DNA from: Sinohyriopsis cumingii
Taxonomy: Eukaryota > Mollusca > Bivalvia > Unionida > Unionidae
Direction of reading: 5' to 3'
DNA: 64,000 bases
Assembly (NCBI GenBank): GCA_028554795.2
Contig: CM068835.1
Span: forward strand, 34,690,901 to 34,754,900
Below, piece by piece: positions 14,211 to 64,000 of the stretch (the stretch's first letter is position 1; every line of letters begins with the position of its first letter). The notes under the pieces were generated by a model. The model did not search any database. It had not been told where the DNA came from and was given only the letters and a program-made list of their open reading frames with translations. Both the position numbers and the translations under genes were made by a program.

Positions 14211-14611
14211 CTACAAAAACAAACTCATATGGCATCACATCAACCAATAACTTAGAAGTTCAAAAGCTTTTTCATGATTTGAGATACATAACAAGTTATT
14301 TAGCAGAATTTATTTCAATATTCTAGGAAAATGTTTCAATATTTTAAAATATAAGAAAACTCATGTAGCTTTTTTAGTTTCATACCATATTTCAAATCAT
14401 ATATTCTAAGGGTCAATGTTGATAAATTATCATTCAGTATGAGATAGGTTCAAACAAAACTCAAGTTCACAAATTAAACTAAATTTAATCAATTTAATTA
14501 ATTAATTAATTTATTTTAATCATTTTTTAAATTGTTAAATGTTGTTTTCATAACATCCCATATCTATAAATGATCAAGGAGCAGGGGAAAAGCTGAACGC
14601 CATTTTCAGAG

Positions 14612-16010: not shown

Positions 16011-16292
16011 GGACATATCATAATCATGAATATATTATCGTCAGATATGATATCAATTAATCATTATTTTCAATCAATAAGGTACAAAACTGGTTTCAGT
16101 CACATAAAAAATGAGAAAAATTGTATATTAACTTGGACTTTCAAATTTCAAGCATTACATGAATTTTGTTAAACATTTTTGAGTGAAATTATTATCAAAC
16201 CTTTGGAATACAAAGAATCAGTATAAAGTTCACCATTTGCAAATGAGATAAACAAATTAAAGATACTTGTTAAACAACAATTATATCCTTAC

Positions 16293-17876
16293 CTTGTTTG
16301 CCAATAGCTTGCATATGCTTCTCAAGCCACTGATTCTGGTCTGCTTGATACACAAACGTTTTCTCTAACCCTGGGAGTAGTTCTCTTTCCTTCTTGCTGC
16401 AAAGCAAAATCTGGTCAGATGTCCTGCATCTGGAAACAAATGTTATGAAAGAATAGTCTTGTAGGGGAAGAAGCTCTAAGCCTTCTAAAATCTCATAGCA
16501 ACAGTCTAGAGTAAGGAACCGAAGGATGTTGAGCTTTTCTTCCCACGAGAAGGACTTGTACCTTGGATTCTCTTTCAACACAGCAGCAAAACCTTTTGAA
16601 TTCATATCCATGAGACAACTGTTGAATTTAGAGAAAAACCTGAGCACATGCAAAGGCACATCCACATAGTGTTTGTCATAAATCTGTAGAACTTTGACCA
16701 GGGTAGACCTAACAGCTGGTGGTAAGTTAGTGTACTTATGGAATGTCGCGAAAAGAGCTTCTGAACAACTAATCCAGCTCTTTATTCCATACTTGTTGAC
16801 AGTCATTAAAGTGGGTTTTGAAGTATGTCTCCTGAAAAGACTAGGAAGGATGGAATTCCATTCCTCTACAACCATGTCAACTCTTGGAATAACTGCATAT
16901 ACACACTGAACAACGTCATCTGAATTTCCATTTTTCATAGCATGATCAATCAACTCACTTATAAGAATTTCATACGCATCTGGTAGTACCTCTTTGACCA
17001 GTTTTTCATTCCACACCAATTGTTTGTCCCTATGTAGGTGCATCATATCCTGTTCAGCTGAAGGCCATTTGATGTGGCGTCTGTTCTGGCTCAAGGCAAA
17101 GAATCCATTTACATGCACAGGCAATCCTGACATGCTTTTAGTCTTCTGTGGCAAAGGCAGGAAGCAATATATGTGACCTTTGAACTCTGTATGATTTTGG
17201 CCCATAGGAGCAGCCACGCCAACAAGAGGGCAGTATCCCAGAGAATCATCCTGAATAAGTGCTTGAAGGTCTTCAGACATATCACCTCCCTTGTAGTAAT
17301 GAATCACCATCCAGTCATTATTGATTTCCTCAATAACAGAGTCTCCATCAAATGATTTTGTGCACAAGGACAGGTGATATCTACAGTCAATGGAATTCAG
17401 TGGAATAGATTTATTCAAATTTTTTATCTTCATCATAAATGTTTTTCTGAGTTCTCTAACTTCCTCTACATTCTTCACAATTTCCACAGTAAACTGTAAA
17501 TTGATTGTATTTTTATCACCCTTTCTCTCATGCAAAGAAACTTTCACTAAATTTTTCAAGAAGACCAAAACGTTTGAGGCTTCAGTTTGAAATGAAGTAA
17601 AAAGATCCATCACCTTCACTCTATTGTACAATGTATCTGACAGCTTCGAAGCCTCCGATCTCAAGGGAAACCTGAATAAGGTTCCCCTATAAATCCCTGT
17701 CTGCAAAATCTTCCTTGAAATACCAAATGTTCCATCCAAGGCCAGGAAGAAGTCCTCAATGTTCAACTTCTTCCATTTCTTAAGTTTGGACAGTTGGATT
17801 GTCAGACAAACACATTCAGCACTTCTGTGGGGATCCATGAATAGAATCCTATCGCCACTCAACACAATGGGGTGAT
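16293..17876 (-). CDS. sacsin-like gene, exon encoding the C-terminal part of SRR1
   Basis: The exon starts after ..ttgtttcag (17,877) and ends at CAAG|GTAAGG (16,293), giving 1,584 nt with phase 1 on both sides. The joined codon with the previous exon encodes Asp of the HIT-DHPIVLSGDRILFMDPHRS stretch that follows the G-box of SRR1. Residues RGTLFRFPLR, GHIYCFLPLPQKT and SGLPVHVNGFFALSQNRR are recurring landmarks of sacsin repeats and also occur in SRR2 and SRR3 of the giant exon. The rest is the regulatory helical part of the repeat. The upstream portion of the open frame before 17,876 is intron. Confidence 0.92.
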
Positions 17877-20200
17877 CTGAAACAAGACAGATATAACTAT
17901 GGAAGCAAGGGAACCTTGAACAGTACATTATAAAGTCCAATAAAATCAGATCCCTAAAATCTGCATTGATACTGATGGATGATACGTGGGTCTTATGTCA
18001 CCTGCTTACTAAAATATGCAATTTCCCTGCATGCAGATCTTTCTGGAACACACATGTATACAGCTTATACACTAACCGGTATTTGGTAACAGCCAAAATT
18101 TAAGTGTGACATTCAAAATGGCAACAGGACAGAGGGTTGTGTTATTCCATGTGGATTTACACACCAAACAGGATTTGATCCAGAAATATTATGCACATAT
18201 CACCAAAAGAACCCTACAGCAGACGGTAGCTCAACAGACACTAGAAATACCGATAAGTTTATAAAATATACACTGATGCATGCAGGCAAAAGTGGCATCA
18301 GATTATGCATATTTTAATGAATAGGCGATATCAGCCCCTATACCACCAGTCAATAGTATTATAGGTGAGGGGCTGATTTATCGGCCTATACATTATATGC
18401 TACTGCTGTTTTTCATAATCCTGCCTGCTGGCATTAGCAGAGGTGGCTGACTCTGGTCAGCTATGGCACAGTGACATTGACTCTGCACTTTAAACCCTAC
18501 AATCAGGTGGTCCCTTCCATACTTGCCCAAATGCAAACCCATCTGTGAATTTTGCTGAAGAAGATGATGCAGAGAACCAACTCTATTTCCCTGTATCAGT
18601 GTGACCTTGACCTTTGACCTGTCCAACTTAACAGGTGAGGCTTGTTTACATCCTTGAATGCATTCCCTCTTCAATGTTGGGTGTGATTATCTAGATGTAT
18701 TTGTAATTCTTTTTTTAGACACCTTTCTCCATGTTACACTGACCTTGACATTTGATTATTTTAGCAGTCCTATGTGCAAGCCATCCTCAGAGTCTGGTCA
18801 AAGTATGTTGTCTAAAACAAACCACTTTTCTCTGAGTTGAGGGTATATTTCTTTCTCACCCATATACAAGCCTTCAACAAAGTTTAGTCATGGTTTGCGA
18901 TCAAAAACTAAAGTTCAAGTACATAAAGAAATTTTGAATAATGTTAAGTTTGCTACCTTAAGAATCCAGCCTTGCTGTAAAGATGAAAATTAGTCTTTTC
19001 TGCCAATCTACATAAAGAGACCGAGGGAAGAAACTCACACTCATTACCTACCAATGACTATGGCTAGGTGTTGTCATTTTTAAGTCAAATGATGCCTCGA
19101 GGATGCTTGCATTTGTGGGGAGACTGGGACAGTTTAATCATGATGTGATCATGTATTTCCAGACAAACGTAGTTTACTAAAAACTTTGCTTTCTCCTTTG
19201 AATACATTTCTCAATCACATTAACGTTAGGAGAAAAAGATAAAAGATAATAGGAGGAGAGACTGCTGACCATCCTACCTCCACTAAGGGCATACTTTTAA
19301 AGAAACATGATTGTATTCTCTTCAAGAAGGATAGCCTGCTCTCCTAACATGAGAGCAGCACATCCGACAGTCAAAGGACCCATGAAAACTATTATCTAGT
19401 TAAGAAGAAAATTACTGAAACCTTCCTACTAAAAAGGAAAAATGTTTATGGGTGAATCTAGTGCCAAACTATAATACAAGTCATACAGGTCTTATAGGCA
19501 TTCAACACCGACTATTTCAGTAATGGGTGTAATTTTTTTAGACTTTGATTCTACATACCTTTAAGTGGTAAGTATTCACTTCATTTGGAGTCATACACAT
19601 CCATAGGACCTTTGGAAGGTCATTAATTAGATGCCCCAATAGGTACATATGGCAAAATTAATGTTAAAATACGTAGATATTTTGTAACAAAATGAACCAA
19701 AGGATGTTATACAGTACAATCCCGACTAAATGTTGCACGCTATGATGACACAATTATGAAAGCTATGTATATTGATAAACAAATTTGTACTACGCTAATG
19801 ATTGTGATGATTCCACTCAATGCACTCTTATTCTGATCCAAGTTTAGCACATGGCTACCATTCAAGTCCATAACAATAGGTAATTTTCATCTGGATGTGT
19901 TTTGGTGGCAGTTAAGGTGCAGAGCATTCAATAATAAGGACTGAATAGACTTTGGTTAAAGAAAATAAGTGTTACATTTTTCAAGAACAATTTATATTTA
20001 ATTTAATGCGAGTAAATGTACATACATGACCCATGTGACTTTTACTATAGTGTCTGTTTGTCTGTTAGATGATGTGCTGATGTAAGCTGGATTTTGTGGT
20101 CATCTGGGCAACAGACACTGGACATATCAGATTCAAATCTTGTCAATGTGAACCTAAATCCATTGACAAAAGCTCTAGAAAGTGGTCTGGGCATGCCAGC
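17877..20200 (-). other. intron of sacsin-like gene, first part, no feature seen
   Basis: This is AT-rich non-coding sequence between the exon at 17,876 and the DIRS-like remnant. Small ORFs here have no recognisable content. Confidence 0.6.
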
Positions 20201-51049: not shown

Positions 51050-52690
51050 AATAAAAATGTATTTGCCCAAGTGAGCTCTTCATCTCATTCCTACACTATT
51101 TTATCGACGTCATAACTGTACTCAACCAAGTAGAAGTCATCATTTTAGTATGAAAAAAAAAGAGAAAGAAATGCAGGATTATTGATCCATCAAGCTCCTC
51201 CATATTTATTGGTCAATATACTGATCAAATTGTGCTAGATTTTGGTTTTGGAGAAATTACTGCCGTATTTCGTGCATATATTTCCACGATTTTCCTAAGT
51301 CTTTACACATTAATTTTTTTGTTTATTTAATGTTAAGGAAACTTAAGTTTATCCATTATGATTATCAAGATCTACAGTTCTATAGGATAGTGATTTCTCC
51401 GTTCTGAAATATCGCAGGTCTACCTCATTTTTCCCCTCCTTCCGCCCACCCCACCCCCGAAAAATGTTCCCAAATGTTGCAATTTCTCTCATGTGCGATA
51501 TATGTGTGTGTGTGTGTGTGCAGTTTCTGTTTTAAAATGATTATACTGTTCTTTGTAATAACACAAAAGAAAATAACAATCTCTCATGCTTATTACAGTC
51601 AATAATGGTCTTCCTTTTCTATTCGGTAAGGATGAGCGCAAATTAAAAATAAAAAATTCGCCATTTGTGTCCGATGGTTACAGAAAGTGTTTTCTGTCAA
51701 AAATCAGACGTGTTCTCCACAGAATTGCTAGTTTGAGGACATCGACGATGCGGAAATCAGGCGAAATGTGAGGTTTTGTTTTTTTTATTGAACAACGTCT
51801 ATTTAGGAACAAAATTAAGTGTTAATTTCGCGCTATTTTATGATATTATGTGAACTTACGTTGCAGTAGACAAATAGTGGATACAGCATAACCGTAACAA
51901 ATACTCTTACACCTTAATTTATCGCTAATTTGGGGACCCAAAGTGGCCCTTATTGAACCTTGCAATGTAATGAATTGTATTTTTTTCCCTCTGTGTGTGT
52001 GTGTATGTGTGTCAGAGAGTGTATGTGTGTCAGAGACAGAGAGATCTTACCTTTGTGTCCTTTCTAGTATACATGGAACCCGAGTAATAAATACACGAAA
52101 TGTATATAGGCGTGGGGTCATCTATATCATGCCATAATAGACCGACCAATGGGAAAAAAGCGCATAAAGAATGTATTACTTCAAGGAAGATAAATCGAAA
52201 CTACATAAGGTTTTCAGAAAATCGATTAATCGATTAAGCGGTCTGATAAACAAAGCTTCAATACATCCTATCCAAAGTTCAAATATTTTTTGACAAGTCA
52301 ATAGCAATCGGACCATCATCGGACAAACAGGTCAAGCGATGTTCCGATCGTGCTTTATGGAGGCATTTTTCGAGAAACCGGAAACAAAAGAAACGGAAAA
52401 TATTACTCATAGGCTGCACTTATTATACACTATAGGGTAAGTTAACGCAGACATGTCGTTCTGCTTGTCTGCTTTCTTGCTGTTGAAATAATTAATATGA
52501 AGTAATGCACCGACTCCAAGAAAAAATAACCCCATAAAACAACGAATAATGCAAAACTAAATGTTCTCTGAATGCGGAGTCTGGCGCCTGCCAGTAACTT
52601 TATTATGACGTGGCTTTTGCTTACGTATGCTACAGTCATATTTACATCCCAAGGTATAGAAACTTTAAACAGAAAATACACAAAAGTTCA
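51050..52690. other. non-coding stretch with (TG)n tracts
   Basis: Short (TG)n tracts occur near 51,501-51,520 and 51,993-52,030. No gene is recognised. Confidence 0.5.
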
Positions 52691-52699
52691 AGTTGCATA

Positions 52700-52883
52700 C
52701 AGGGCCGTAGAGAGCGATCACGGGCCTTGGGGTAAGAAACACCATGCCTCTTAGTTCTTGTTCAAACAAAAACAAAAACAAAATCTTTTATAAAATTAAA
52801 AAGTATTGTTCGGCCCCGGTCCTCCTTACGGGCCCTGGGAATATATCCTCCGGTGGCCCCTCCTCCTCATCTTGTCGGCCCTG
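52700..52883. mobile_element. hAT-type MITE, 184 bp
   Basis: The termini are CAGGGCCG..CGGCCCTG. The eight bases before the element (gttgcata) and after it (tttgcata) differ at one position, fitting an 8-bp target site duplication. CAGGG termini with 8-bp duplications are hallmarks of hAT elements. The interior is GC-rich with no ORF. Confidence 0.72.
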
Positions 52884-52889
52884 TTTGCA

Positions 52890-53690
52890 TACAGCTACCA
52901 ATACATAAGATTTATGACTTTCCAAATTTTTAACACATAATCTAAACTTTGATGACGTTGCCATATCTACTGTAAAAGTAGTCCTACATGTAAGACATAG
53001 AACATTCTGATTTTGTTGAGGTGCTATGTCTTACTATCCAAATAACGGCCTTGTATAGTGCGTTCCGACGTCGTTGACATCGGAATGAGTAATCAAAGTT
53101 TCACAAACATCTCACACATTTGTCAGCCTATATCGACATTTTTCCACTAATTTATGTGTAATTAATATACTTACTGTGCTGTCTTTATCCTGGTGGAATG
53201 AAAATATGACACTAGCAAATGGATGCATTTTCACGTTCCGTTGACGTACATTTGAATTTGTTGCAATGCGACGGTAGTCGAGATATGCCGAAGTAAGTTC
53301 AAGTAGGTTGATGTTTGTGACATGTTTCTTGAACGAAACGAACCGTTGCTTACAGTTCTAATAGGCATAATATATTTGTATTGTTTCGTTAAAAATTAAT
53401 GTTTCGACTTTTTCCGATGAACTTCTTCCCAAATGACATCAATACAACCGAAATACAATTCATCCTGATCTACTCCCATGGGGTTGGACTGAAGAGGGTT
53501 GTTATTGGGGAAACTTCATCGATGCTGGTTATTGGATGACATACCCCAATATATGGTACACTTTTTAAATCATGGTTATACATAAGAAAAAGTTGTGTTT
53601 CAATTAATACAAATTGCAGGACTCGTCCATTGTAGATTGTTTTAAACTACATAAAATATAGCCATAATAAACGAGTTTCACGTTAACCGA
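52890..53690. other. non-coding stretch left of the Polinton-like element
   Basis: No gene or repeat is recognised. The left boundary of the element could lie near 53,690, where the tandem repeats begin, but no terminal inverted repeat could be matched. Confidence 0.4.
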
Positions 53691-53749
53691 TAAAAGTAGT
53701 GAATGGGGACGATGGAGGGACAATGGGACGTACCATTAAAAATCACCCT

Positions 53750-54090
53750 GGGACAATATAAGGACAAGGGGAATTTAACATGAGAAATACAGGACCAGCA
53801 CTCTGGCGTCAAGGGGAATTTAACATGGGGAATACAGGACCGGCACTTGGGGTACAATGGGAATTTAGCATGGGAAATACAGGACCGGCACTTGGGGGAC
53901 AATGTGAATTTAACATGGGAAATACAGGACCGACATTTGGGGGACAATGGGAATTTAGCATGGGAAATACAGGACCGGCACTTGGGGAACAATGGGAATT
54001 TAACATGGGAAATACAGGACCGTCACTTGGGGGACAATGGGAATTGAACATGGATGGGACTGTCGGGGGACAATGGGAATTGAACATGGG
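53750..54090. repeat. 45-bp tandem repeat array at the left end of the element
   Basis: About seven copies of a ~45-bp unit (gggacaatgggaatttaaca, then tgggaaatacaggaccggca, then cttgg) occur head to tail with point differences. Because 45 is a multiple of three, several frames stay open on both strands; these ORFs are artefacts. Related, more diverged units reappear at 54,620-54,835, placing the array within the same end region. Confidence 0.9.
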
Positions 54091-54167
54091 AGATTGATAT
54101 AACACAGACAATAGACAAACACTGATACAACACATTATAAAACAAAATTTGAGGAGGCAAGAAAGTC

Positions 54168-54197
54168 AATTCTTTTCGAGGCCTATGAGTGACCCTT
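54168..54197 (-). terminator. degenerate third copy of the histone-type 3' module
   Basis: The minus strand reads agggtcactcataggcctcg then aaaagaattg. It aligns with the 3' half of the stem, the ACCCA-like flank and the CTCGAAAAGA downstream element of the two better copies. The 5' half of the stem is absent, so it cannot fold. Similarity continues about 15 nt further (gactttcttgcc), indicating a shared origin. Confidence 0.45.
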
Positions 54198-54214
54198 ACA
54201 TTCACTTCACTTAT

Positions 54215-54605
54215 TATATACTATCCACACACGGAAAGGTGCCATAACTAACCCCATTATACTATCCACACGCCGAGAAGCAAAACCAAACTCAAAATAT
54301 ACTATCCACACATGGGGAGAAGCCATAACAAACCCCATAATCTACTATTCACACATGCAGAGACGCCAAATCAAACCCAAAATCTACCATCCACACACGC
54401 TAAGCAGCAAACTTAAACCTATACACTACTATCCCCACACGGGAAGCAGCAAAAACATGACCACAATCTACCATTCACACAGAAGGTAAGGTTAAATAAC
54501 CACACACTCTACTATCCACACAAACGTACCTGAGCTCTTACAAAACCAATAATCTACTATCCACACAAACGTACGTGAGCCCTTACGAAACCCAATAATC
54601 TACTA
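54215..54605. repeat. degenerate repeats of an 'actatccacac' unit
   Basis: About eight diverged units of roughly 50-60 bp share 'ctactatccacaca' followed by a variable stretch with 'cc(a)aatc'. No coding content. Confidence 0.75.
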
Positions 54606-54619
54606 TAGTAGTTAGGGGG

Positions 54620-54840
54620 GGCACCCTACGTACAATGGGAATTACCATTACAGGGACCCCTGGGACACTCTACGTACAATGGAAATTTAACATGGCGAAA
54701 AATCGTGGGTCACTCTACGTACAAGGGGAATTGAATATGGCGAAAAATCATGGGTCACTCTACGTACAAGGGGAATTTAACATGGGGAATAGAGTTTGGG
54801 CTTGTTTAGGGACAAGGGGAATTGAACATGGGATTTTTTT
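54620..54840. repeat. diverged units related to the 45-bp array
   Basis: Units with 'gggtcactctacgtacaagg' and 'ggaatttaacatggcgaaaa' repeat four to five times, resembling the 45-bp array at 53.75-54.09 kb. They are followed by a T/A homopolymer stretch (54,834-54,876). Confidence 0.75.
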
Positions 54841-54892
54841 ATGTTTTTTTTTAAAAAAAAATTATTTTAAAAAAAGGGGTAGGCAATTGAAA

Positions 54893-54935
54893 GGCTATCT
54901 CTTTTCGAGAAATATGGCTGGCCCTGAAAAGGGCC
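54893..54935 (-). terminator. histone-type mRNA 3' end: stem-loop plus purine-rich downstream element
   Basis: On the minus strand bases 54,935-54,920 read GGCCCTTTTCAGGGCC. This is a perfect 6-bp stem with a 4-base TTTC loop, identical to the metazoan replication-dependent histone stem-loop consensus. It is preceded by CCAAA and followed by AGCCA (canonical ACCCA). About 12 nt later comes CTCGAAAAGAGA, a purine-rich element of the kind that pairs with U7 snRNA. It starts 24 nt after the stop codon of the minus-strand basic ORF, the usual histone spacing. SLBP/U7 processing is inferred from sequence only. Confidence 0.8.
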
Positions 54936-54959
54936 TTTGGGTTTATGTTAATGTATTCA

Positions 54960-55193
54960 TTAACATAAAGGGCACCGCATTGGTCTTCTTCTTGTCCTTA
55001 GGCTGCGTCTCACTGTTGGCCCGTAAATCAGCACTCTTTTCAGGCATCCTTGTCTTTCAACATAGATCCTACGTATCCACAGACTGGTGTTTGTCCTGTG
55101 GACAACGGTCCACTTGGATCGGACATACATGAGCATGTCTGTCCTGAACATCATGGAAGACACAAGCGTAGAAGATTGCACATCGGTCCACAT
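54960..55193 (-). CDS. small Arg-rich basic protein of the element (unrecognised)
   Basis: This 77-codon ORF starts at the first ATG after a TATA-like box (cctataaata, minus strand, 55,249-55,238) with A at -3. It ends 24 nt before a histone-type stem-loop. The product has 14 Arg and 2 Lys against 3 acidic residues, concentrated in the C-terminal half (TVRRSLRTRRRPMR). I recognise no domain; it is not a core histone by sequence. An alternative 34-codon ORF in another frame (55,047-54,943, Lys-rich end KDKKKT) stops 7 nt before the stem-loop. Promoter-ORF-stem-loop order makes a real transcription unit likely; which frame is translated is uncertain. A basic packaging role is only a guess. Confidence 0.5.
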   Translation of the reverse strand: MWTDVQSSTLVSSMMFRTDMLMYVRSKWTVVHRTNTSLWIRRIYVERQGCLKRVLIYGPTVRRSLRTRRRPMRCPLC

Positions 55194-55412
55194 CTTGAAG
55201 CGACGAGAACAGGTGAATCAATGCAGTGAACTGCGCTTATTTATAGGTAGAGGTAGGATTGAAACGGATTGAGTTCATTCACCAATCCGAACACGCGTTA
55301 CAAAATTCAGTCAGCCCGCATCCAATCCGAAGAGAGCAGTCTGTGACGTCACGTAGTCTATATAGATTCGCTAGCGCTTGTGTGCAGTCAATCTATGCGA
55401 CAGTGATTCAAC
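55194..55412. promoter_or_regulatory. divergent histone-like promoter (CCAAT, CRE, two TATA boxes)
   Basis: 219 bp separate the two divergent start codons. For the plus gene a TATA-like tctatataga sits at 55,357-55,366, 48 nt before the ATG, with a perfect CRE palindrome TGACGTCA at 55,344-55,351. For the minus gene cctataaata lies at 55,249-55,238. CCAAT boxes occur twice (ccaatccga near 55,281 and 55,322). Short divergent CCAAT/CRE/TATA spacers are typical of metazoan H2A-H2B pairs. The S-phase implication is inference. Confidence 0.7.
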
Positions 55413-55988
55413 ATGACGGAAATTCAGAAAACGATCCATTGGGGTGCACCAACAGGGGAGACTGCCCAAGGGAACCCGGACTTACTTTCAGAAGAGGTGA
55501 ATTGGGATTTTGTGGATTTTCTCTCCTCGCAAGAATTTGTTCCGGAACCTGCTTTACCTTCTTCATTACCGCAAGTGGAGAATTTTAGACAGAGACAGAA
55601 AGAAGAATTGGAGAAATTTATACAACGACAAAAGGAAGCGGAACAAGCTTTTCTCCTACAGCAACAGCAGCAAGAAGAAGAGGTAAGAAAAAAACAACAG
55701 CAACAACAGCAAGAAGAAGTAGCAGCAAAGAAACAAGAGGGTGAAAATCAAACGGTCACGGTACTGTTGGACATTTTAGCGGAGTTAAGAAGTCTGAAAC
55801 AAATGTATCAGACTTCTTTATTACGACCGAAGAGAATACGACCTTCCCGAGCGAAACACGTTAACCCTGTGACTAAGCCTACCGTACCACCCTTAGTGAT
55901 TTCAACCCAATCATCGTCAACATTACGTAGTCCAGAAGTAGGCCTTGGCCGTGGCAAAGGCTTAAGGCAGTTAAAGTTGATTGCTTAA
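55413..55988 (+). CDS. Q-rich coiled-coil protein of the element (unrecognised)
   Basis: The 191-residue ORF starts at an ATG 48 nt after a TATA box. The N-terminal 50 residues are acidic and aromatic (EEVNWDFVDFLSSQEF). Residues about 55-115 form a charged/Gln-rich coiled coil with CAG/CAA-coded runs (QQQQQEEEVRKKQQQQQQEE). A Leu-rich heptad segment follows (VTVLLDILAELRSLKQMY), then a basic Pro-rich tail (RPKRIRPSRAK). I recognise no family. It is followed 28 nt after the stop by a histone-type stem-loop. An acidic N-terminus, oligomerisation segment and basic tail would fit a DNA-binding regulator or a scaffold, but that is inference. Confidence 0.65.
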   Translation: MTEIQKTIHWGAPTGETAQGNPDLLSEEVNWDFVDFLSSQEFVPEPALPSSLPQVENFRQRQKEELEKFIQRQKEAEQAFLLQQQQQEEEVRKKQQQQQQEEVAAKKQEGENQTVTVLLDILAELRSLKQMYQTSLLRPKRIRPSRAKHVNPVTKPTVPPLVISTQSSSTLRSPEVGLGRGKGLRQLKLIA

Positions 55989-56015
55989 ACTCACCCCTAC
56001 ACCGTAAAGAAAAAA

Positions 56016-56056
56016 TACCCTTTTCAGGGCCACCCACATTTCTCGAAAAGAAATAC
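56016..56056 (+). terminator. histone-type mRNA 3' end (second copy, weakened stem)
   Basis: Bases 56,016-56,031 read TACCCTTTTCAGGGCC. The loop and the four upper base pairs match the histone stem-loop; the two basal G:C pairs are lost because GG became TA. The 3' flank is the canonical ACCCA, followed by CTCGAAAAGAAA, the likely U7-pairing purine element, at the usual distance. It begins 28 nt after the stop of the Q-rich ORF. It is clearly homologous to the minus-strand copy at 54.9 kb, including about 15 nt past the purine element. Confidence 0.72.
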
Positions 56057-56191
56057 AATTTCAATTTGCCAATAACTCAAAAAAAAAAAAACACCCATTT
56101 TACCCTTATAGTACGTTTGTGTGTATGAGTGCGTGAGTGTAGCTTCTTATTTTAAAATCAAAACTCAAAGACATTTACCTTGTATCATTAA

Positions 56192-56197
56192 TTTATT
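56192..56197 (-). promoter_or_regulatory. poly(A) signal for the CCHC gene
   Basis: AATAAA on the minus strand lies about 90 nt downstream of the stop of the zinc-knuckle ORF. This gene therefore appears to use conventional polyadenylation, unlike its left neighbours. Confidence 0.55.
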
Positions 56198-56282
56198 CTT
56201 TTCTCCATTTTTTACAATCCAATTCACAATTCACAACACAACACTTTAATTAAAAGTTCATTGACTTCTTCTTTCTCCTTGT

Positions 56283-56765
56283 TTAGTCTCTCTGTTTTTT
56301 GAATTTCTTCACCGTCTTTTCCTCTTCTTTCTCCTCATTTTCTTTCCTTCTTCTTTTCTTCTCCTGTTTCTTTGCCTCTTGTAAATAGAATTGTCTTCTT
56401 TCTTCCTCTTCTTCCTCTGAAGAATCCCTCTCTTCCTCTGAAGAATCCCTCTCTTCTTCTGAAGAATTCCTCTTTTCTTCTGATTCCTCTTGTTTCTTTT
56501 TTGGGCAATCTGGAGACCAATGTCCTTTTTCTTTACAATAATAACAGGTATCTTTACTTTTGTCTTTTTTAGCCCTTGTTTTTTTTCTTTTTTGACGGTC
56601 TGGACACTCTGAAGACCAATGCCCTTTCTTCTGACAGATATAGCTAGTATCTTGACTTTTATCTCGAAAGGAAGGAGAGTAGTCCGTCGGCTGGTCTGAA
56701 GAGAATTTTCTAATGACCCCTCGCAAAGCTCTGACGAAACGTTCGATTTGGTTAGTCTCTTCCAT
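56283..56765 (-). CDS. CCHC zinc-knuckle protein with acidic/basic C-terminus
   Basis: The first ATG in frame is at 56,765 (160 residues); the open frame extends upstream without a start. Two knuckles are visible: a first one reading SYICQKKGHWSSEC, in which the first Cys is Ser, and a canonical C-x2-C-x4-H-x4-C (CYYCKEKGHWSPDC). The rest is Ser/Glu repeats (SSEEERD three times) and a Lys/Arg/Glu-rich tail. A TATA box (tatataaaagg, minus) lies at 56,828-56,819, about 55 nt upstream. CCHC knuckles bind single-stranded nucleic acid; such proteins are common in retroelement Gag, but no capsid or RT accompanies this one and it shares a divergent promoter with the polymerase, so it belongs to the element. 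Its function is unknown. Confidence 0.7.
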   Translation of the reverse strand: MEETNQIERFVRALRGVIRKFSSDQPTDYSPSFRDKSQDTSYICQKKGHWSSECPDRQKRKKTRAKKDKSKDTCYYCKEKGHWSPDCPKKKQEESEEKRNSSEEERDSSEEERDSSEEEEEERRQFYLQEAKKQEKKRRRKENEEKEEEKTVKKFKKQRD

Positions 56766-56899
56766 CGTTGTGCTCGGATTGAGAGTGAAATGAATAGTGA
56801 AAGGACAAGACACACACCCTTTTATATACGCTGGTCTGCCATGACTATAAATTAGTTTATGGTGTTTACACTTGAGTCATTTGACGTTTTGCACTCAAG
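56766..56899. promoter_or_regulatory. divergent promoter between CCHC gene and polymerase
   Basis: Two opposed TATA boxes lie within 134 bp: minus-strand tatataaaa at 56,828-56,820 and plus-strand TATAAAT at 56,846-56,852. The plus TATA is 48 nt upstream of the first plus-strand ATG (56,900). This is the second head-to-head promoter of the element. Confidence 0.65.
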
Positions 56900-57019
56900 A
56901 TGAAACGATCCCATTCATTCGAGAAGAAAGAAGAAGAAAGTAAGAGGCAGAAACGTGATCTATCGCCAGAGCTGAAATCTTGGTACAAATTCATGCCAGT
57001 GATTTTGAAGAGGACATGA
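56900..57019 (+). CDS. short upstream ORF overlapping the polymerase start (ATGA)
   Basis: The first ATG after the TATA box opens a 39-codon frame (MKRSHSFEKKEEESKRQKRD..). Its TGA at 57,017-57,019 overlaps the polymerase frame's ATG at 57,016. It may be a real upstream ORF, or the true polymerase N-terminus separated by a frameshift near 56,990-57,010; the Lys/Glu-rich composition fits either. Confidence 0.45.
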   Translation: MKRSHSFEKKEEESKRQKRDLSPELKSWYKFMPVILKRT

Positions 57020-60000
57020 GTGAACCAGAATTTGAAACCTCTAAACCAAGTTCGTCACCCTTAGTCAACCCTGAAAAATACTATTCCTTTCGAGAGACGG
57101 AAAAGCGCTCCTCTAGAAAATTTAGAACCACGGCTTACACCTACACGGTGAAGTTTAAAGATTTCAAGGCCGACGTACCACTGGAGAAAGCAGAAGGGTT
57201 TATCACCGAGATGTGGGATTCTTTGCTCACCGCACTCAAGCGACAATGTCAACCCAAAGAAGACGATCGCTTGACATTATCCATAGATCACGACGGTTTG
57301 AAATCCCCTGTTTGGATCGAGTTTAGCAGACCCGCAGAACTAACCCCTTCCAAAATCATGGACAAGATTCAACACGTACAACAATCTAATGACCAGTTTG
57401 ACATCACCGATGGTAAAGCCACGCTGAAAATGGCTCACGTCTCTCTTCCTCAAGGGACTGGACGCAAAAAGATGTTATTGGTGGACGACCTTCGCAACAC
57501 CAAAACAAGTCTCGTCCGAATTAACAACCCTCAAGACCAGATGTGTTTAGCTCGAGCCATCGTGGTGGGACGAACCTATGCCAACAAAAACGACACGGTA
57601 GAATGGAAAAGAACCTGGAACACTATTCAACGTTCCTATCGACCCAAACAACGAAACGAAGCAGAACTTCTGTTACAACAAGCCGGACTGTCCAAAGACA
57701 CACCCTGTGGCATTCCTGAGATGCAAAAATTGCAAGATGCCCTAGCTCCACGCTGCACCTTGAAAGTACACCCTCAAGAAATGCCTGGGTCTCTGTTGTT
57801 TCGAGGCCAAGATTTTAAGGACGGAAAATACATTCACCTTTATCATCACGATGAACATTTCGATACCATTACCAGTATCACTGGATTCCTGGGATATGCT
57901 TATTATTGTGAGAAATGTGATTATGGTTATAACAATAATCACATTTCTCACAATAATAAGCATATCCCAGGAATCCAGTGATACTGGTAATGGTATCGAA
58001 ATGTTCATCGTGATGATAAAGGTGAATGTATTTTCCGTCCTTAAAATCTTGGCCTCGAAACAACAGAGACCCAGGCATTTCTTGAGGGTGTACTTTCAAG
58101 GTGCAGCGTGGAGCTAGGGCATCTTGCAATTTTTGCATCTCAGGAATGCCACAGGGTGTGTCTTTGGACATTGTGGATGGAAATGTCCAGGATGTTTGGC
58201 CTCTCCCCCCTGTCTGAGCGAAGGACCAGTGCCTTGTTCAACTTGTCAGCGCACGTTTGTCAGTCCTACCTGTTACCAACAACATCTGAAAACACAAGGT
58301 TCACAGAAGAAATGTGCTTGTCAACTGCTGAGATTGTGCCCTACGTGTGGACAAGGCATACTTACCAATAAGGCCAAGGGACACGTATGTCGAGGAAAGA
58401 AAAAATGTCACATTTGTCACCACATCGTGGACTTGGAACACCAATGCTACGTGCAAAAATACCAACCCCCACCAGGGAAAGAGGACGGTCACAAGAAGAA
58501 AGGCAATTTCATCTTTTTCGATTTCGAATGCATGCAAGAGACCGGCATTCACATTCCTAATTTCTGCGTGGCTCATCGAGCGTGCGAGAAGTGCATTCAA
58601 GAACCTATCTTCAGTCATTGCCCTCACTGCAGCAAGATTCCTGGAGGGCGTGAAAAAATCTTTCGGGAACCGAACACGTTAGCCGATTTTGCCCAATGGG
58701 TTTTAGACCCCGTCGACAAGACGTGGAGCCAAGAGGACATCGAACGTTACGGAGATTGTCATCGTCATGCCACGGTGATGGCTCACAATTTCTCCGGATA
58801 CGATGGACAGTTTCTTCTCAGATACTATACGGAACAAGGCACCGAACGTCCTAAAGTCACTTTGAACGGAGCCAAAATCATTTTCATGCAAGTGGGACAA
58901 GTACAGTTTAAAGATTCGATGAGCTATTTGGCCATGCCTTTGAGTCGAATGCCTAAAACGTTTGGAATGACAGAAATGGCTAAAGGGTACTTTCCAAAAT
59001 TTTTCAATACGGAAGCCAATCAACACGCCGTTCTACCCCATTTACCCGAGGCTCACTATTACGACCCTGACAACATGCGTACCGAACAACGAGAAGCTTT
59101 CTACGCTTGGTACCAGGCTCATGCCTCTGACCCTTTCGACTTTCAGGAAGAAATGTTAAAGTATTGTCGTTCCGACGTGGACATTTTACGACGTTCCTGT
59201 GGAAAATTTCGAGAACTGTTCATGGAACACGGAGGGGTCGATCCTTTGAAAGAAGCTTGCACCATTGCCAAAGCGTGTTCCTTAGTGTACCGCCAACGAT
59301 TCATGCCTGAAAACACCGTGGCTGTCATCAGTCCTCAAACGACCCACTATGTCAAGCGTCAATACTCGGTCAAAGCCCTACGTTGGTTACATTACTTGTG
59401 CGACAAGGAAGATCAATGGATTCAGCATGCCCGCAACGGAGGAGGCGAAAAGACCATCGGAACGTATTCGGTCGATGGCTGGGACTTAGAAAACCCCAAG
59501 ATCGTGCACGAGTTTAACGGCTGCTTATTTCACGGATGTCCCGTCTGCTACCCTGACCGTGACACTAAAAATCAGTTTTTACAACGGACCATGGAAGACT
59601 TGTACCAGGACACATGTCAGCGGCGCCTAAATTTAGAACAGCAAGGATACCAAGTGGTGGAAATGTGGGAACACGAGTACGATCACCGTATGAAAACCGA
59701 TCCCGAGTTTAAAAGCCTCGTGGAAAGTTACCAGTTCATGGACCCGCTGAACCCGAGGGATAGTTTGTACGGAGGAAGGACCAATGCCACCTGTTTGCTG
59801 TACCAAGCCGACGAAGAGAAAGGAGAAGAAATCAAATATTTGGACGTGTGTTCGCTGTATCCCTACGTGTGCAAATATTGTCGTTTTCCCGTAGGGCACC
59901 CGCAATTGCTGACGGAACACATCGACCTGAAAAACATTCGACAATACGAAGGCTTGATCAAGTGCAAAGTTTTGCCTCCCACGAACCTATACCATCCCGT

Positions 60001-60486
60001 CTTACCTCACCATTGTCAAGGCAAACTGATGTTTCCCTTGTGCCGTACTTGTGCCGAAACGTGCAACCAAGACCAACCTTGTCAGCACAGCCAGGAAGAG
60101 CAGGCCTTGACGGGAACCTGGGTCAGCGTAGAATTGTTCAAAGCTCTGGACATGGGATACCAACTGTTAGAAGTGTACGAAATTTGTCACTTTCCTAAGA
60201 CACAACAATACCACAAGGGTGACCCTACTCAGAAAGGCATTTTCGCCGACTACGTGGATGCCTTTTTGAAACTGAAGCAAGAAGCCAGCGGCTATCCTTC
60301 CTGGTGTCACACTCCCGAAGACCAAATAAAACTCAAAGAGAAATACTACGAACAAGAAGGCATCACTTTAGACCACATCGAGAAAAACGAAGGCAGGCGA
60401 TCGTTTGCCAAAGTGATGTTAAATTGCTTGTGGGGTAAAATGGCACAACGACCGTGTTTACCCAAGACGGAATATTTGACACAACC
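57016..60486 (+). pseudogene. family B DNA polymerase of Polinton/adintovirus type, broken
   Basis: The N-terminal domain (57,016-57,930) is followed by a Cys-rich region (58,180-58,470). The exonuclease follows, with FFDFECM (Exo I, about 58,515), AHNFSGYDGQF (Exo II, about 58,785) and YCRSDVDIL (Exo III, about 59,160), then motif A YLDVCSLYPYV (about 59,840) and motif B FAKVMLNCLWG (about 60,405). The domain order is that of protein-primed polymerases of Polintons. Two lesions: an inverted duplication at 57,930-58,170 breaks the frame, and the coding similarity ends at ..PKTEYLTQP near 60,486, so motif C (Y-DTDS) and the C-terminal part are missing. The segments on either side of the inverted duplication are in the same phase when its 241 nt are discounted. 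The gene cannot make an active enzyme. Confidence 0.88.
57689..58170. repeat. near-perfect 241-bp-arm palindrome inside the polymerase
   Basis: Bases 57,689-57,929 and 57,930-58,170 are inverted copies with no spacer. The one difference I find is at 57,925 versus 57,934. The left arm is genuine polymerase sequence; the right arm is its inverted duplicate. It produces mirror-image ORFs on both strands. Either a recent fold-back replication event or an assembly or library artefact can explain it. Confidence 0.95.
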
Positions 60487-60506
60487 TTCGTCACGTTCTT
60501 CGGAAA

Positions 60507-60644
60507 ATGGTTCAAAAGAAAATTCCCATTCGTCAAAAAAAGAAGATGTTGGTCCAACGTGGAGGCATTTTGCCTCTCTTGTTAGGCCCCATACTGAAAG
60601 GAGTCTTGGGAACCATGTTGGGAGGACTGGTGGGAGCAAGATAA
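60507..60644 (+). CDS. small hydrophobic core-peptide-like protein (45 aa)
   Basis: This short ORF, in a different frame from the polymerase remnant, has a basic N-terminus (KKIPIRQKKK) followed by a QRGGILPLLLGPILKGVLGT segment that is hydrophobic and Gly-rich. Small proteins with a basic head and a GG-[IF]-LP hydrophobic stretch are found in adenovirus/adintovirus/Polinton genomes, where a virion core-peptide or membrane-active role is proposed. Position just before the coiled-coil gene supports this. It is intact from ATG to TAA. The similarity call is from motif memory only. Confidence 0.6.
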   Translation: MVQKKIPIRQKKKMLVQRGGILPLLLGPILKGVLGTMLGGLVGAR

Positions 60645-60693
60645 AAAGGCCTTCGGAAGTCCCAAGATCTCAGAATTGACCCCTGACAACCCC

Positions 60694-61344
60694 ATGGAAG
60701 GACGAAAACTAGCTTTAGTGCCTTACAAACGATGGATGGAATACCATCGGTGGCAAGAACAACGCACCCCGCATTTACCTCCCAATCCCAATTTGAGCGA
60801 GATGTCCCAGTTACAACACGAATTGCAGTCCTTGATGGATCGCCAAGATTTGTCCGAAACAGAAAAATCGCAAAAGTACGGTCAACTCTTGCAACGACTG
60901 CAACTCTTTCACCAGAAAGCTTTAGACGAAACAGCTCTACCCACTCTGAAAGATTTTAAGACCTTGATGAAAAGTCCAGCACCATCACCAGTACCAGTAC
61001 CAGTACCACCAGTACCAGTGACCAAGACAGAAAAAGGAAAAGAAGAAGAAGAAGAAGGGTTTCAAACTCCACCAGAAAAAGTACGCAAGTTAACAACACC
61101 ACCTACCTCCAGAATTGGATGGATTAAAAAGATGATGGCCACCCCTTCTTCATCACAAGAGAAAAAGAAAGTGAAGACAGAAGTGAAGACAGAAGTGAAA
61201 CAAGAACCGATATCCCCCGCTCAGACATCCTCCTCCTCCTTCTCTTCAACACCTATTGCCGGTCGCACACGCAAAGCATTGCAATCCAAGAAAATACCCC
61301 AAGAGAAAAAGAGTAGCCTCTTCCACGAGTGGGTGCCTTATTAA
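60694..61344 (+). CDS. coiled-coil protein with LVPYKRW N-terminal motif
   Basis: The first ATG in frame is at 60,694 (216 residues). The N-terminus reads MEGRKLALVPYKRWMEYHRW, followed by a helical segment (about residues 35-85) predicted as coiled coil. A Pro/Val repeat (SPVPVPVPPVPV), an acidic patch (EEEEEGFQTPP) and a Lys/Ser/Thr-rich tail with VKTEVKTEVKQE follow, ending LFHEWVPY. Many invertebrate Polinton-type elements carry a protein of this layout between a GG-LP peptide and the integrase; its function is unknown, with capsid scaffold or regulator both possible. The frame is intact. Confidence 0.65.
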   Translation: MEGRKLALVPYKRWMEYHRWQEQRTPHLPPNPNLSEMSQLQHELQSLMDRQDLSETEKSQKYGQLLQRLQLFHQKALDETALPTLKDFKTLMKSPAPSPVPVPVPPVPVTKTEKGKEEEEEGFQTPPEKVRKLTTPPTSRIGWIKKMMATPSSSQEKKKVKTEVKTEVKQEPISPAQTSSSSFSSTPIAGRTRKALQSKKIPQEKKSSLFHEWVPY

Positions 61345-61377
61345 CACACCAACCAACACAAAAAAATAAAAAAAAAA

Positions 61378-62500
61378 ATGGAAAAAGTCTTAGCCAGCAT
61401 TTACTACGATCCTTCCCATCCTGCAGGTTACGCAGGAGTTCAAAAATTGTATCGTGCTGCCAAAAGTCGACTGAAAAGTCTCCGTTTACCTCAAGTGCAA
61501 CGATGGTTACAAGAACAAGCTACCTACACTTTGCACAAACCCATTCGACGCATGTTTGCCAGAAGTCGCACCTGAGTGGAAGGCATCGATCATCAATGGC
61601 AAGCCGATTTAGCCGATGTCTCTCATTTGTCCAGCTACAATCGTGGCTACAAATATTTGTTTTGTGTCATCGACGTCTTTTCCAAATTTGCCTGGGTCGT
61701 GCCCTTGACTTCCAAATCGAGCAGCGAGTTAGTGCGAGCCCTGCAACGAGTGCTGAAACAAAGCGGTCGTCACCCTCTTCGATGGCAAACGGACAAAGGC
61801 ACCGAATTTCTGAACCAAGCTTTCCAAAAAGAATTAAAGAAACGTGACATTCATTTTTTTACCACCGAGAATCCCGAAACCAAAGCCAGCATCGTGGAAC
61901 GTTTTCAACGCACTTTGAAAGAACGCATGTGGAAATATTTTACGCATCACCACACTCTGAAGTACATCGACATCTTACCGCACCTGGTGCAAGCGTACAA
62001 CCAATCTTACCATCGAAGCATCGGACGTGCCCCGCAAGACGTGACTCCCGACAACGAAGTGCTGGTGTTTGAGCGCCTGTTCGGTACGTCCCCGACGAGG
62101 GCTGTCCCCAAGAAAAGTGGAGAGTTGGCCGTAGGAGATTGGGTGCGCATTGGCAAAACCAAACGCATTTTTGACAAAGGTTACTTACCTAACTGGACGA
62201 CCGAATTGTTTCGCGTCACTGGACGAGTGCATGGCCGTCATCCTGCCGTCTATAAATTGGAAGACATGAACGGAGAAGTGCTCAAAGGAACGTTTTATTT
62301 GCCCGAGTTACAACGTGTCACCAAAAAAGAAGACGACGTGTACGACATCGAAAGCATTCTCGAACGAAGAACCCGTAAAGTGGGCAAACGACGTGTCAAA
62401 GAAGTCAAAGTACGTCGGAAAGGATATCCACCCAGTTTCGATTCTTGGATCGACGCTTCGCAAGTCATCGACTATAAAAAGAAGTCACCATCATGCCCTT
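61378..62500 (+). pseudogene. rve (DDE) integrase with chromodomain, one in-frame TGA
   Basis: The N-terminal segment (61,378-61,572) has the GYAGVQKLYRAAK and YTLHKPIRRMFARSR blocks that precede the catalytic core in Polinton integrases. A TGA at 61,573-61,575 interrupts, and the same frame continues. DDE residues: D in HQWQADLADV, D in WQTDKGTEF, E in KASIVERFQRTL. A C-terminal chromodomain-like block reads DVYDIESILERR..KVRRKGYPPSFDSWI. Beyond about 62,480 the frame stays open to 62,682 while overlapping the next gene, which is probably run-on after the true C-terminus. The integrase would insert the linear element into chromosomes. The copy is inactive unless the stop is read through. Confidence 0.88.
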
Positions 62501-62912
62501 TCACACAGCAAACGCAGCTACGTCAACCACTCCTTCTTCTTCACCTAGTTCTTCTGTGCAAGATTTACAAAGACAACCCTTGTGGGTGTGGTGTGGAGAA
62601 CGTGTGCCTAAAACGCAAATCGTCTTTTTCTGCCAAATCTTCGTGGTGTATTGTGTCATCGGGGCAGCCATTGCCAATTTGAGTTTGCAACAAGGAGACA
62701 AACAATTGTGGACCATTTTATTGAGCAGTTGATTCGGTTACCTACTTCCCAATCCCTCCCTGAAATTCTCCTCGAACGGAAACCTTGTGTCCAGTGCCAG
62801 TGTCAGTCACCACTCCAACCACAATCACAACCAGAACCCCATTTTGGGCGGAGACACGCCTCTGACGTCCAGTAATATCCCCTCGGACAGCCACAGAACT
62901 CTGGAATTATGA
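62493..62912 (+). pseudogene. single-pass membrane protein of the element, one in-frame TGA
   Basis: The ATG is at 62,493, with a Ser/Thr/Pro-rich N-terminus and one hydrophobic segment (VFFCQIFVVYCVIGAAIANL). Then comes GDKQLWTILLSS and a TGA at 62,730-62,732; the same frame goes on with FGYLLPNPSLKF and a Ser/Asn/His-rich tail to a TGA at 62,910-62,912. Small proteins with this TM-LW..LLSS..GYLLPNP layout recur next to the integrase in invertebrate Polinton-type elements. The final stop overlaps the ATG of the following gene (ATGA). Either a truncated 79-residue protein is made or the copy is broken. Confidence 0.68.
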
Positions 62913-63322
62913 GTCACCAAAACCAATTTTACTTAACCTTACCCAGTGACAGTTCCATGGAGGTGTTTCCCCACAACACGTTGTGCTGTTACACGGCCAA
63001 ATTACCTCAGGCCATCCCCTTAGATCACGAAGCCCATTGGGAAGTGGCTTTGGTAGAAATGATTCACCCGACCCAAGTCCACAATGTTCTTTCCAATCAA
63101 AATTTTTTTGATGTGGAAGTTCATGACCCACAATTGCAACTGGAGTTGGATAAGAGAACCATATCTGACAAGAAAACCTATAATGAAAGCACTAAAAAGT
63201 GGACCTACCACTTGTTCATTTCCCCAGGCTATTATTTTAGTGGTCATCATTTGGTCAGCACCATAAGCTCCAAGTTTACACTGGTCAACAGTGAAATCAT
63301 TACTGACTTGAAAAGGCCCTAA
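62909..63322 (+). CDS. penton-like/minor capsid protein, N-terminal part only
   Basis: The 137-residue frame starts MSHQNQFYLTLPSDSSMEVF and continues with an EVALVEMIHPTQVHNV block and an ISPGYYFSGHHLVSTI block. A FYLTLPS-SSM-[VY]FP-NT start followed by a WEVALVE motif is seen in a family of proteins of invertebrate Polinton-type elements considered to be minor capsid/penton-like, normally much longer. Here the reading frame ends at 63,322 and the sequence style (CpG content, codon use) changes around 63,090-63,110, so the right part may come from another copy. The family call is from memory of the pattern, hence moderate confidence. I judge it a truncated gene. Confidence 0.55.
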   Translation: MSHQNQFYLTLPSDSSMEVFPHNTLCCYTAKLPQAIPLDHEAHWEVALVEMIHPTQVHNVLSNQNFFDVEVHDPQLQLELDKRTISDKKTYNESTKKWTYHLFISPGYYFSGHHLVSTISSKFTLVNSEIITDLKRP

Positions 63323-63540
63323 TCTGTAGTATTTTGGTGTGCCGAACACGAATATAACCATGAAAAATTTGTATTGGCTCTCGTTTTGAAGATATTCATA
63401 TACCTCATTTTCTATGTTTCACTGTGTAAATTTCTCCAGTAGGACTGCAGCAACATCCGGAATAATGATTTAACATTGCATAATACCATCATGCTCACAT
63501 CATCCACAGTTGATTGCATCATTTTCTGATGCAATGCAAT
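63323..63540. other. junction region right of the element, nothing recognised
   Basis: It is AT-rich and without coding similarity. No terminal inverted repeat matching the left array is present, so the element's right end is missing or rearranged. Confidence 0.5.
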
Positions 63541-63660
63541 ACTAATGCCATGCGGCTGCTGAAGTAAGTTGACGTCAGCAGTGTACTATACATGTGTAGG
63601 CCTATTATACTAATGCCAGGCGGCTGCTGAAGCTGACGTAAGCAGTGTACTATATAAAGC
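63540..63660 (+). promoter_or_regulatory. duplicated CRE/TATA promoter module
   Basis: A ~50-bp segment beginning ctaatgcca(t/g)gcggctgctg is present twice (63,542 and 63,610). Each copy carries a CRE-like site (TGACGTCA, then TGACGTAA) followed by gcagtgtactata. In the second copy the box is ctatataaag, followed about 115 nt later by the start codon at 63,773. It is the probable promoter of the ORF at 63,773. Confidence 0.6.
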
Positions 63661-63772
63661 CCAATCAGATAGGTTCAGCATTTAAAATATTTTAGACGTT
63701 GTGCGAGACAGTTCAAGCTACTGTTACATAAAACTTATTATTTTATCCATTTACGTACAATAAAGAACAGTA

Positions 63773-64000
63773 ATGCCTCGAAAGTGTGTTAATACCGCGG
63801 ACAATTTTTGCTATATTTGTGGGGAAGTGACATTTGCCAACCAGAAGAAAAGTATCAATTCTCAAGTGAAGAAGGCATATCATCTTTACTTCGGATGCAA
63901 GGTTGGTGACCAAGACAAGCCTTGGGCTCCGCATATATGCTGTGCTACATGTACAACACAGCTTTCACAGTGGTTGAATTGCAAAAGGTCATCAATGCCG
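63773..64000 (+). CDS. Cys-rich protein, 5' part (runs off window)
   Basis: The open frame from ATG at 63,773 to the window edge gives 76 residues beginning MPRKCVNTADNFCYICGEVT. Cysteines are spaced as C..C-x2-C and later GC..CCATC, suggesting a zinc-binding domain at the N-terminus. I recall many near-identical N-termini in multicopy uncharacterised genes of arthropods, cnidarians and molluscs, which suggests a mobile or amplified origin, but I do not know its function. No intron is seen in this part. Confidence 0.6.
   Translation, partial: MPRKCVNTADNFCYICGEVTFANQKKSINSQVKKAYHLYFGCKVGDQDKPWAPHICCATCTTQLSQWLNCKRSSMP

Follow-up and report, generated by a model that had tools for sequence, protein, structure and literature searches.

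Histone-type 3′-end signals on the terminal genes of an integrated Polinton/adintovirus-type element

We conclude with good confidence that the DNA analyzed here (the window, a stretch of 64 kb) holds an integrated copy of a Polinton/adintovirus-type element, that five terminal genes of this copy end in a histone-type signal, and that host SLBP and U7 snRNP would process their transcripts without poly(A) addition. The signal itself, its host-like geometry, co-variation at one base pair of its stem and its spread through the element family are directly supported by the data.

Results

The element and its genes

Polintons are defined by a PF03175-type DNA polymerase B (PolB), an RVE integrase, a double-jelly-roll capsid, terminal inverted repeats and a 6-bp target-site duplication. 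The copy studied here occupies C12:34745507-34762790, about 17.3 kb including an apparent nested insertion, and extends beyond the window; positions outside are given in locus L029. Its ends and core genes within the window are:

54601-54606, no strand: left target-site duplication TACTAT (6 bp); the right copy follows the right terminus L029:7890, outside the window
54607-54944, no strand: left terminal inverted repeat, starting with AGTAGTTAGGGGGG, with 45-bp tandem units and the minus-gene stem-loop
56192-56197, minus strand: AATAAA downstream of the convergent zinc-knuckle frame
56283-56876, minus strand: frame with two zinc-knuckle (CCHC) stretches, Pfam PF00098
56959-60679, plus strand: PolB gene in two frames, with PF03175 (E 3.5e-41) in the second
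61576-62682, plus strand: RVE integrase (PF00665, E 2.6e-14, over cut-off) with a chromo-domain stretch (PF00385)
62876-63322, plus strand: unassigned late-block frame, apparently shortened by the nested insertion

The element thus runs from 54607 (AGTAGTTAGGGGGG) to L029:7890, and TACTAT flanks both ends. The terminal inverted repeats are identical in 276 of 332 alignment columns; 50 columns are gaps, 45 of which represent a single repeat-unit gap. Terminal repeats and target duplication were established for the window copy alone. The chromo domain of the integrase scored 21.3 bits, under its cut-off of 25.1. PolB had 181 relatives at E ≤ 0.001, and among the 120 listed, 13 name an organism: seven are from bivalves (genera Mercenaria, Mya, Ruditapes, Argopecten and Saccostrea), the rest from corals, a limpet and a beetle. 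These names make it likely that the host is a mollusc.

The capsid gene lies outside the window, with the three right-end stem-loop genes, within L029:2258-7890. A 323-aa piece of the capsid had 600 relatives at E ≤ 0.001, and several of the named ones among the 120 listed were F54H12.2-like proteins of oysters; no Pfam capsid family matched the piece. Its structure model was modest (pLDDT 67, pTM 0.64). With Foldseek, the best match was the PBCV-1 capsid (E 1.6e-7), and those of Sputnik, mavirus and an adintovirus were also retrieved, with low TM-scores (query-normalized, about 0.2-0.5 for the listed matches). Judged by this modeled fold, the piece appears to be a double-jelly-roll major capsid protein. 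Among the late-block ORFs scanned, none matched an adenovirus-type protease or a packaging ATPase in Pfam over cut-off; a 107-aa ORF at L029:4533-4856 looks protease-like by eye.

PolB, the RVE integrase, the terminal inverted repeats with their target duplication and the predicted double-jelly-roll capsid were all found, and the element is a Polinton/adintovirus-type provirus of an abundant family. The initial annotation, made from the letters of the window, had assigned it in this way, and PolB, integrase, capsid piece, inverted termini and 6-bp target duplication bear the assignment out.

The left-end gene pair

Two divergent genes occupy the left end, each followed by a signal:

54895-54940, minus strand: SL1, histone-type 3′ signal of the minus gene (RF00032, 35.6 bits, E 1.2e-6)
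54960-55193, minus strand: minus-gene ORF, 77 aa, Arg-rich (MWTDVQSS...); its stop ends 24 nt before the SL1 stem
55413-55988, plus strand: plus-gene ORF, 191 aa, with a conserved N-terminal NWDFVDFL motif and a basic C-terminal stretch
56011-56055, plus strand: SL2, histone-type 3′ signal of the plus gene (RF00032, 19 bits, under cut-off)

The initial annotation had described two divergent ORFs ending in histone-type stem-loops, one perfect and one with two basal pairs lost, each with a purine element at U7 distance. This description proved accurate. The stop codons lie 24 and, from the coordinates, 27 nt before the stems of SL1 and SL2, respectively. The SL1 hairpin (54935-54920) is the perfect GGCCCTTTTCAGGGCC, and SL2 of the window copy is decayed, its stem-loop TACCCTTTTCAGGGCC (56016-56031) having lost two basal pairs. 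GAAAAGA starts 13 nt past the stem in both, the purine elements being GAAAAGAG (54906-54899) and GAAAAGAA (56045-56052). The flank of the minus copy had been called ACCCA-like and is actually AGCCA. The two left 3′ ends (SL1 and SL2 regions) form an 85% inverted repeat of each other.

With RF00032, the Rfam histone 3′ stem-loop model (cut-off 34 bits), the covariance-model search proposed in the initial annotation placed SL1 above the cut-off but left SL2 below it. SL1 was the sole match at or above cut-off for any Rfam family on both strands of the 64-kb window. RF00032 gave no further match in the window at cut-off, in 52000-64000 of the window down to E 5, or in L029 down to E 1. A model of our own (R1), built from 34 sequences, two of them from the host, gave 73.3 bits for SL1, whose sequence is part of the model, and 62.6 bits for the window SL2, which is absent from it; no other R1 match in the window was better than E 0.77.

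In each of the 13 copies checked the minus-gene frame was open; some copies differ in length by codon-sized steps. The frame had no match in Pfam or PHROGs. The idea that this ORF is a decayed histone was dropped in view of the missing Pfam match and the open frames. The plus-gene protein had 20 relatives at E ≤ 0.01 (query coverage 27-100%, identity 59-97%), none of which is named beyond 'hypothetical protein'. One of them, P0132 (64% identical pairwise), reads through the usual stop into a tail, ...ISGPPTSLEKRYY, which by our own reading is close to the translation of the stem-loop and purine region of L083. This likeness suggests that the signal may also be present in a more distant source.

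The right-end genes

The signal had been noted at the left-end genes, and it does mark both of them, but it is not restricted to that end: beyond the window, three small tandem genes at the right end are each followed by a histone-type signal (SL3, SL4 and SL5), so that in the window copy five small terminal genes carry it, two divergent on the left and three in tandem on the right. The right-end stems, at L029 5804, 6612 and 7603, scored 29.3 (SL3), 31.1 (SL4) and 42.5 bits (SL5) with RF00032; SL1 and SL5 exceed the cut-off, and SL2, SL3 and SL4 of the window copy are under it. Each signal is built from a 6-bp stem, a 4-nt loop (TTTC, or TTTA in one gene), an AC-rich flank and GAAAAGA 13-14 nt past the stem. 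The right ends of other copies (L030-L033) have the same signal pattern.

The signal-bearing ORFs encode short charged or Arg-rich proteins. Four of them, those of the two left genes and of SL3 and SL4, were scanned with Pfam and contain no histone domain. In the window copy, the third right-end gene has no ORF of at least 50 aa before its stem. Across copies, this fifth slot holds different ORFs (L031/L036 versus L033/L038/L041) and keeps the signal; the two sets of ORFs have no mutual BLASTP match at E 0.01 with low-complexity masking.

We also looked for polyadenylation signals. AATAAA follows both core-gene 3′ regions checked, those of the zinc-knuckle frame (56192-56197) and of the late block (L029:5184). 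No AATAAA or ATTAAA was present within 200 nt of the stem for SL1, SL2, SL4 and SL5 of the window copy. For SL3, an AATAAA follows the start of the stem at 81 nt; two occur past the stem of host H4.

Inspection by eye of the right-end stem-loop genes (L029 5300-7000) revealed a shared upstream motif resembling GGGGATGTTTTCC(T/A)TCACGTCCGCGC, followed in two genes by the TATA-like CACTATAA; the shared motif suggests a common promoter type.

Comparison with host histone genes

Histone genes of the host lie in tandem arrays, with at least 150 scored PF00125 hits; the array unit is about 8.3 kb, and many arrays are on small contigs (C531, C310, C725 and others). Host H3 and H4 both finish with GGCCCTTTTTAGGGCC; GAAAAGA follows 13 nt after the stem, and the stop-to-stem distances are 28 nt (H3) and 27 nt (H4). 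In the window copy, the latter distance is 24 nt for the minus gene, 27 nt for the plus gene and 30 nt for SL3 and for SL4. Across copies it was 18-24 nt for SL1 (13 copies) and 28-37 nt for SL3 in four of the five copies with an ORF. For SL4 it was 25-36 nt in four of the six copies with an ORF and 86 and 96 nt in the other two (eight examined), and for SL5 15-24 nt in six of seven copies with an ORF and 60 nt in one (nine examined). Most copies had a stem-to-purine spacing of 13 nt, the exceptions being some SL3 (14 nt) and SL1 of L019 and L024 (12 nt). With both distances resembling those of H3 and H4, the geometry of the element signal is host-like. The best element copies scored up to 45.6 bits with RF00032, against 35.9 for host H3 and 37.7 for H4.

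The element thus has what marks a histone signal, a 6-bp stem with a 4-nt loop and a purine-rich downstream element at a fixed distance. Compared directly through host H3 and H4, metazoan replication-dependent histone genes share with it the stem, the loop class and both distances; they differ from the element in that its four scanned signal-bearing ORFs lack a histone domain.

Conservation and base-pair exchange

Base pairs were counted in 34 chosen rows, including two host sites. Near-identical copies were left out, as were SL3 copies spaced at 14 nt and two decayed SL2 sequences, those of the window and L034. In these 34 sequences, 96.1% of the stem cells were paired, and the basal pair was G-C in 23, A-U in 8 and unpaired in 3. 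The number of two-sided-change cells (8), the percentage paired and the covariation score were above all 500 shuffles; counts of changed pairs and of changed pair types were not. The basal stem pair co-varies, the evidence coming from this one position of the stem.

Conservation of stem plus purine element was tested on loci that had not been fetched for the signal tested. SL5 was dropped, the RF00032 list at SL5 being the source of 8 of its 10 loci or of the stretch to which they belong, and the SL2 set is not wholly choice-free, as the DNA query had included SL2. Mean pairwise difference was 0.016 versus 0.123 in the background for SL1 (n = 20, p = 0.0004), 0.021 versus 0.162 for SL3 (n = 4, p = 0.007) and 0.052 versus 0.183 for SL4 (n = 8, p = 0.016), and SL2 showed no significant excess conservation (0.039 versus 0.059; n = 26, p = 0.2). 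Since neither columns nor copies are independent, the p-values serve as guides. The initial annotation had proposed to look for conservation of stem and purine element across copies; SL1, SL3 and SL4 are indeed conserved above their flanks, but SL2 is not.

Occurrence in the genome and beyond

Searches were run on the 2.9-Gb assembly (1,138 contigs). Exact signal patterns occurred 32,572 times, 12,934 as GG...CC and 19,638 as AG...CT with one loop base free, and the same two patterns read backwards gave 0 matches genome-wide. Such counts, with backward controls of 0, make a chance origin implausible. A host-type-loop pattern matched 332 places (backward control 0), among them host histone genes as well as sites resembling those of the element. 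Of these 332, the 100 listed were all 36 nt long and had 44 different spacers, the pattern allowing a gap of 5-16; the uniform length reflects in part common descent. Four sites of this type stand at exact 9,738-bp steps (C8:1891882, 1901620, 1911358 and 1921096), perhaps a tandem array of an element piece.

With RF00032, 75 hits were scored out of 589,472 first-look candidates, and 17 of these 75 were opened: L001-L008, which scored best, and nine from further down (L035-L043). Each of the 17 was an element copy by shared sequence, and none was a histone gene. Among 20 loci collected by DNA similarity (L009-L028, L009 being the window's own copy), SL1 was present in 18; the other two, L010 and L014, have no matching left part. 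Two more copies, 93-95% identical to the window and reached through PolB regardless of the signal, both have an intact SL2. R1 gave 89 matches in 43 element loci, which are not independent finds because five locus pairs overlap and many of the sequences are in the model. At least one match fell in each of the 43, so that the stem-loop expected by the initial annotation in related copies is present in every element locus scanned.

In IMG/VR, PolB (as a single sequence and as an alignment) and the plus-gene and capsid alignments gave no confirmed relative, and two stem-loop DNA patterns gave no match, in searches from which near-window records may be excluded. Animal-type Polinton capsid genes were seen in two contigs binned as bacterial, L080 (a tubeworm-endosymbiont MAG) and L081 (a Breoghania MAG), presumably by contamination. 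These contigs hold no signal, and a first-look search of both MAGs, run without a positive control, found none; as the contigs are not known to reach element ends, this absence is uninformative on terminal genes.

Discussion

According to two papers (PMC5636114, PMC2781718), the histone 3′ stem-loop is recognized by SLBP and the histone downstream element by U7 snRNP, and the resulting mRNAs end in the stem-loop, without poly(A). We infer from the sequences that transcripts of the terminal genes are processed likewise, lack poly(A) and are timed to S phase. Host SLBP would bind the element hairpin and U7 snRNP would pair with the purine element; the pre-mRNA would be cut a few nucleotides past the stem, giving short non-polyadenylated mRNAs. 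Cells with much SLBP, namely those in S phase and possibly oocytes and early embryos, would accumulate these mRNAs. Ordinary polyadenylation would serve the core genes for replication and the virion. Through this histone-type route, the terminal genes would be favored in replicating or SLBP-rich cells. As to the host factors, the best RF00066 match for U7 reached 29.3 bits (cut-off 34) among the 65 of 801,960 candidates scored, and a U7-like pattern had 3 genome matches, none with a convincing 3′ hairpin. A single-exon search for SLBP gave no match, and its controls gave none either.

We considered the possibility that hairpin and purine tract are features of the element termini at the DNA level, such as protein-binding or replication sites, histone-like by descent or chance and without a role in RNA. 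SL1 and SL5 are indeed part of the terminal inverted repeat and almost identical to each other, and the two left 3′ ends form an inverted repeat. Yet SL2, SL3 and SL4 are outside the terminal repeat, and every gene examined has its signal after the stop on the sense strand, with the purine element 3′ at host spacing. A DNA site would need neither the stop-codon distance nor the exchange of base pairs in the stem, and we regard this explanation as highly improbable. Scarcely credible, in our view, is that the signals are captured fragments of host histone genes that are now neutral. This would explain why stem and purine element are identical to those of host histones, but not why the four scanned signal-bearing ORFs lack a histone domain, why loops and flanks of the element are unlike those of host H3 and H4, why its copies reach 45.6 bits with Rfam when H3 and H4 reach 35.9 and 37.7, or why one element has five signals, three of the four tested being conserved above their flanks.

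The signals might instead be recognized mainly for RNA protection or export by SLBP, or act as a fail-safe, most transcripts being polyadenylated and not coupled to S phase. The AATAAA 81 nt past the start of SL3 would fit, and for human histone pre-mRNA, assembly of the histone processing complex or, alternatively, of the canonical one has been reported (PMC9756948). However, the stem-to-purine spacing is kept although the spacers differ in sequence, which points to U7-type recognition besides SLBP binding, and in the window copy neither AATAAA nor ATTAAA occurs within 200 nt of the SL1, SL2, SL4 and SL5 stems. We therefore consider this alternative unlikely, and histone-type processing by SLBP and U7 snRNP remains our preferred reading.

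To our knowledge, no Polinton has been described with histone-type 3′ ends as a gene-regulatory feature. A search of the open-access literature by titles and beginnings of abstracts revealed no description of Polintons, adintoviruses or other mobile elements with 3′ ends of this type. The initial annotation likewise knew of no such Polinton. The sole mention in the literature covered comes from one study, which counts six Rfam hits of this kind in Polinton-like virus and virophage genomes, without comment (PMC12220804).

Polintons/Mavericks and adintoviruses share with the present element the PolB type, the RVE integrase with a chromo-like stretch, terminal inverted repeats, the 6-bp duplication, a size near 17 kb and the capsid, which is double-jelly-roll by predicted fold and oyster F54H12.2-like by sequence; the window element is set apart by the histone-type 3′ signals on five of its terminal genes. 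Another comparison is with viruses that interfere with the supply of histone mRNA. HTLV-1 Tax is reported to lower histone levels (PMC2276518), and the common point is a virus touching the histone/SLBP pathway. In that case a viral protein changes host histone levels, whereas the window element appears to carry the cis signal itself.

If its transcripts follow the predicted route, the element would be a mobile virus-like DNA using the poly(A)-free histone mRNA route for a defined set of genes. This would provide a concrete, testable idea for the timing of Polinton expression, possibly tied to DNA replication, and a natural set of thousands of non-histone SLBP/U7 substrates. Rfam-based histone annotation and poly(A)-selected RNA-seq would then both mishandle such genomes. 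As a tentative suggestion, which we think may well be wrong, an animal Polinton lineage could have taken the histone-mRNA 3′ end as an early-gene system, restricting early transcription to cells with active replication or stored SLBP. The family may also be a reservoir competing for SLBP and U7, considering the more than 32,000 exact signal copies compared with at least 150 histone-domain hits.

Other features of the element and the window

An apparent nested insertion, extending from about 63320 to about L029:1650 as estimated from the broken gene, cuts the late-block gene. It contains a 482-aa ORF (L029:13-1461) with no Pfam match and, at 63566 and 63630, two nearly identical direct repeats of 25 bp. 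The PolB gene is split by a perfect 241-nt inverted duplication with zero spacer (window 57689-58170); its junction is missing from L034, an examined copy spanning that place, and the duplication may have arisen by a recent rearrangement or as a fold-back in the assembly. With a distant query, for which the best candidates were scored, all but one of the listed PolB places were in stop-free frames of about 1,350 aa, and these open frames fit recent activity of the element family.

The stretch left of the element (window 53680-54600), with its 45-bp repeats and a weak match to the stem-loop (54162-54204, 14.6 bits, E 0.77), resembles the terminus of a related but older element; the present element seems to have inserted into TACTATCCACACA-type repeats. 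Farther left, the window contains a large sacsin-like gene on the minus strand, with sacsin (SACS) domain matches in a 3,696-aa frame (3157-14247) and a second frame (16270-17940).
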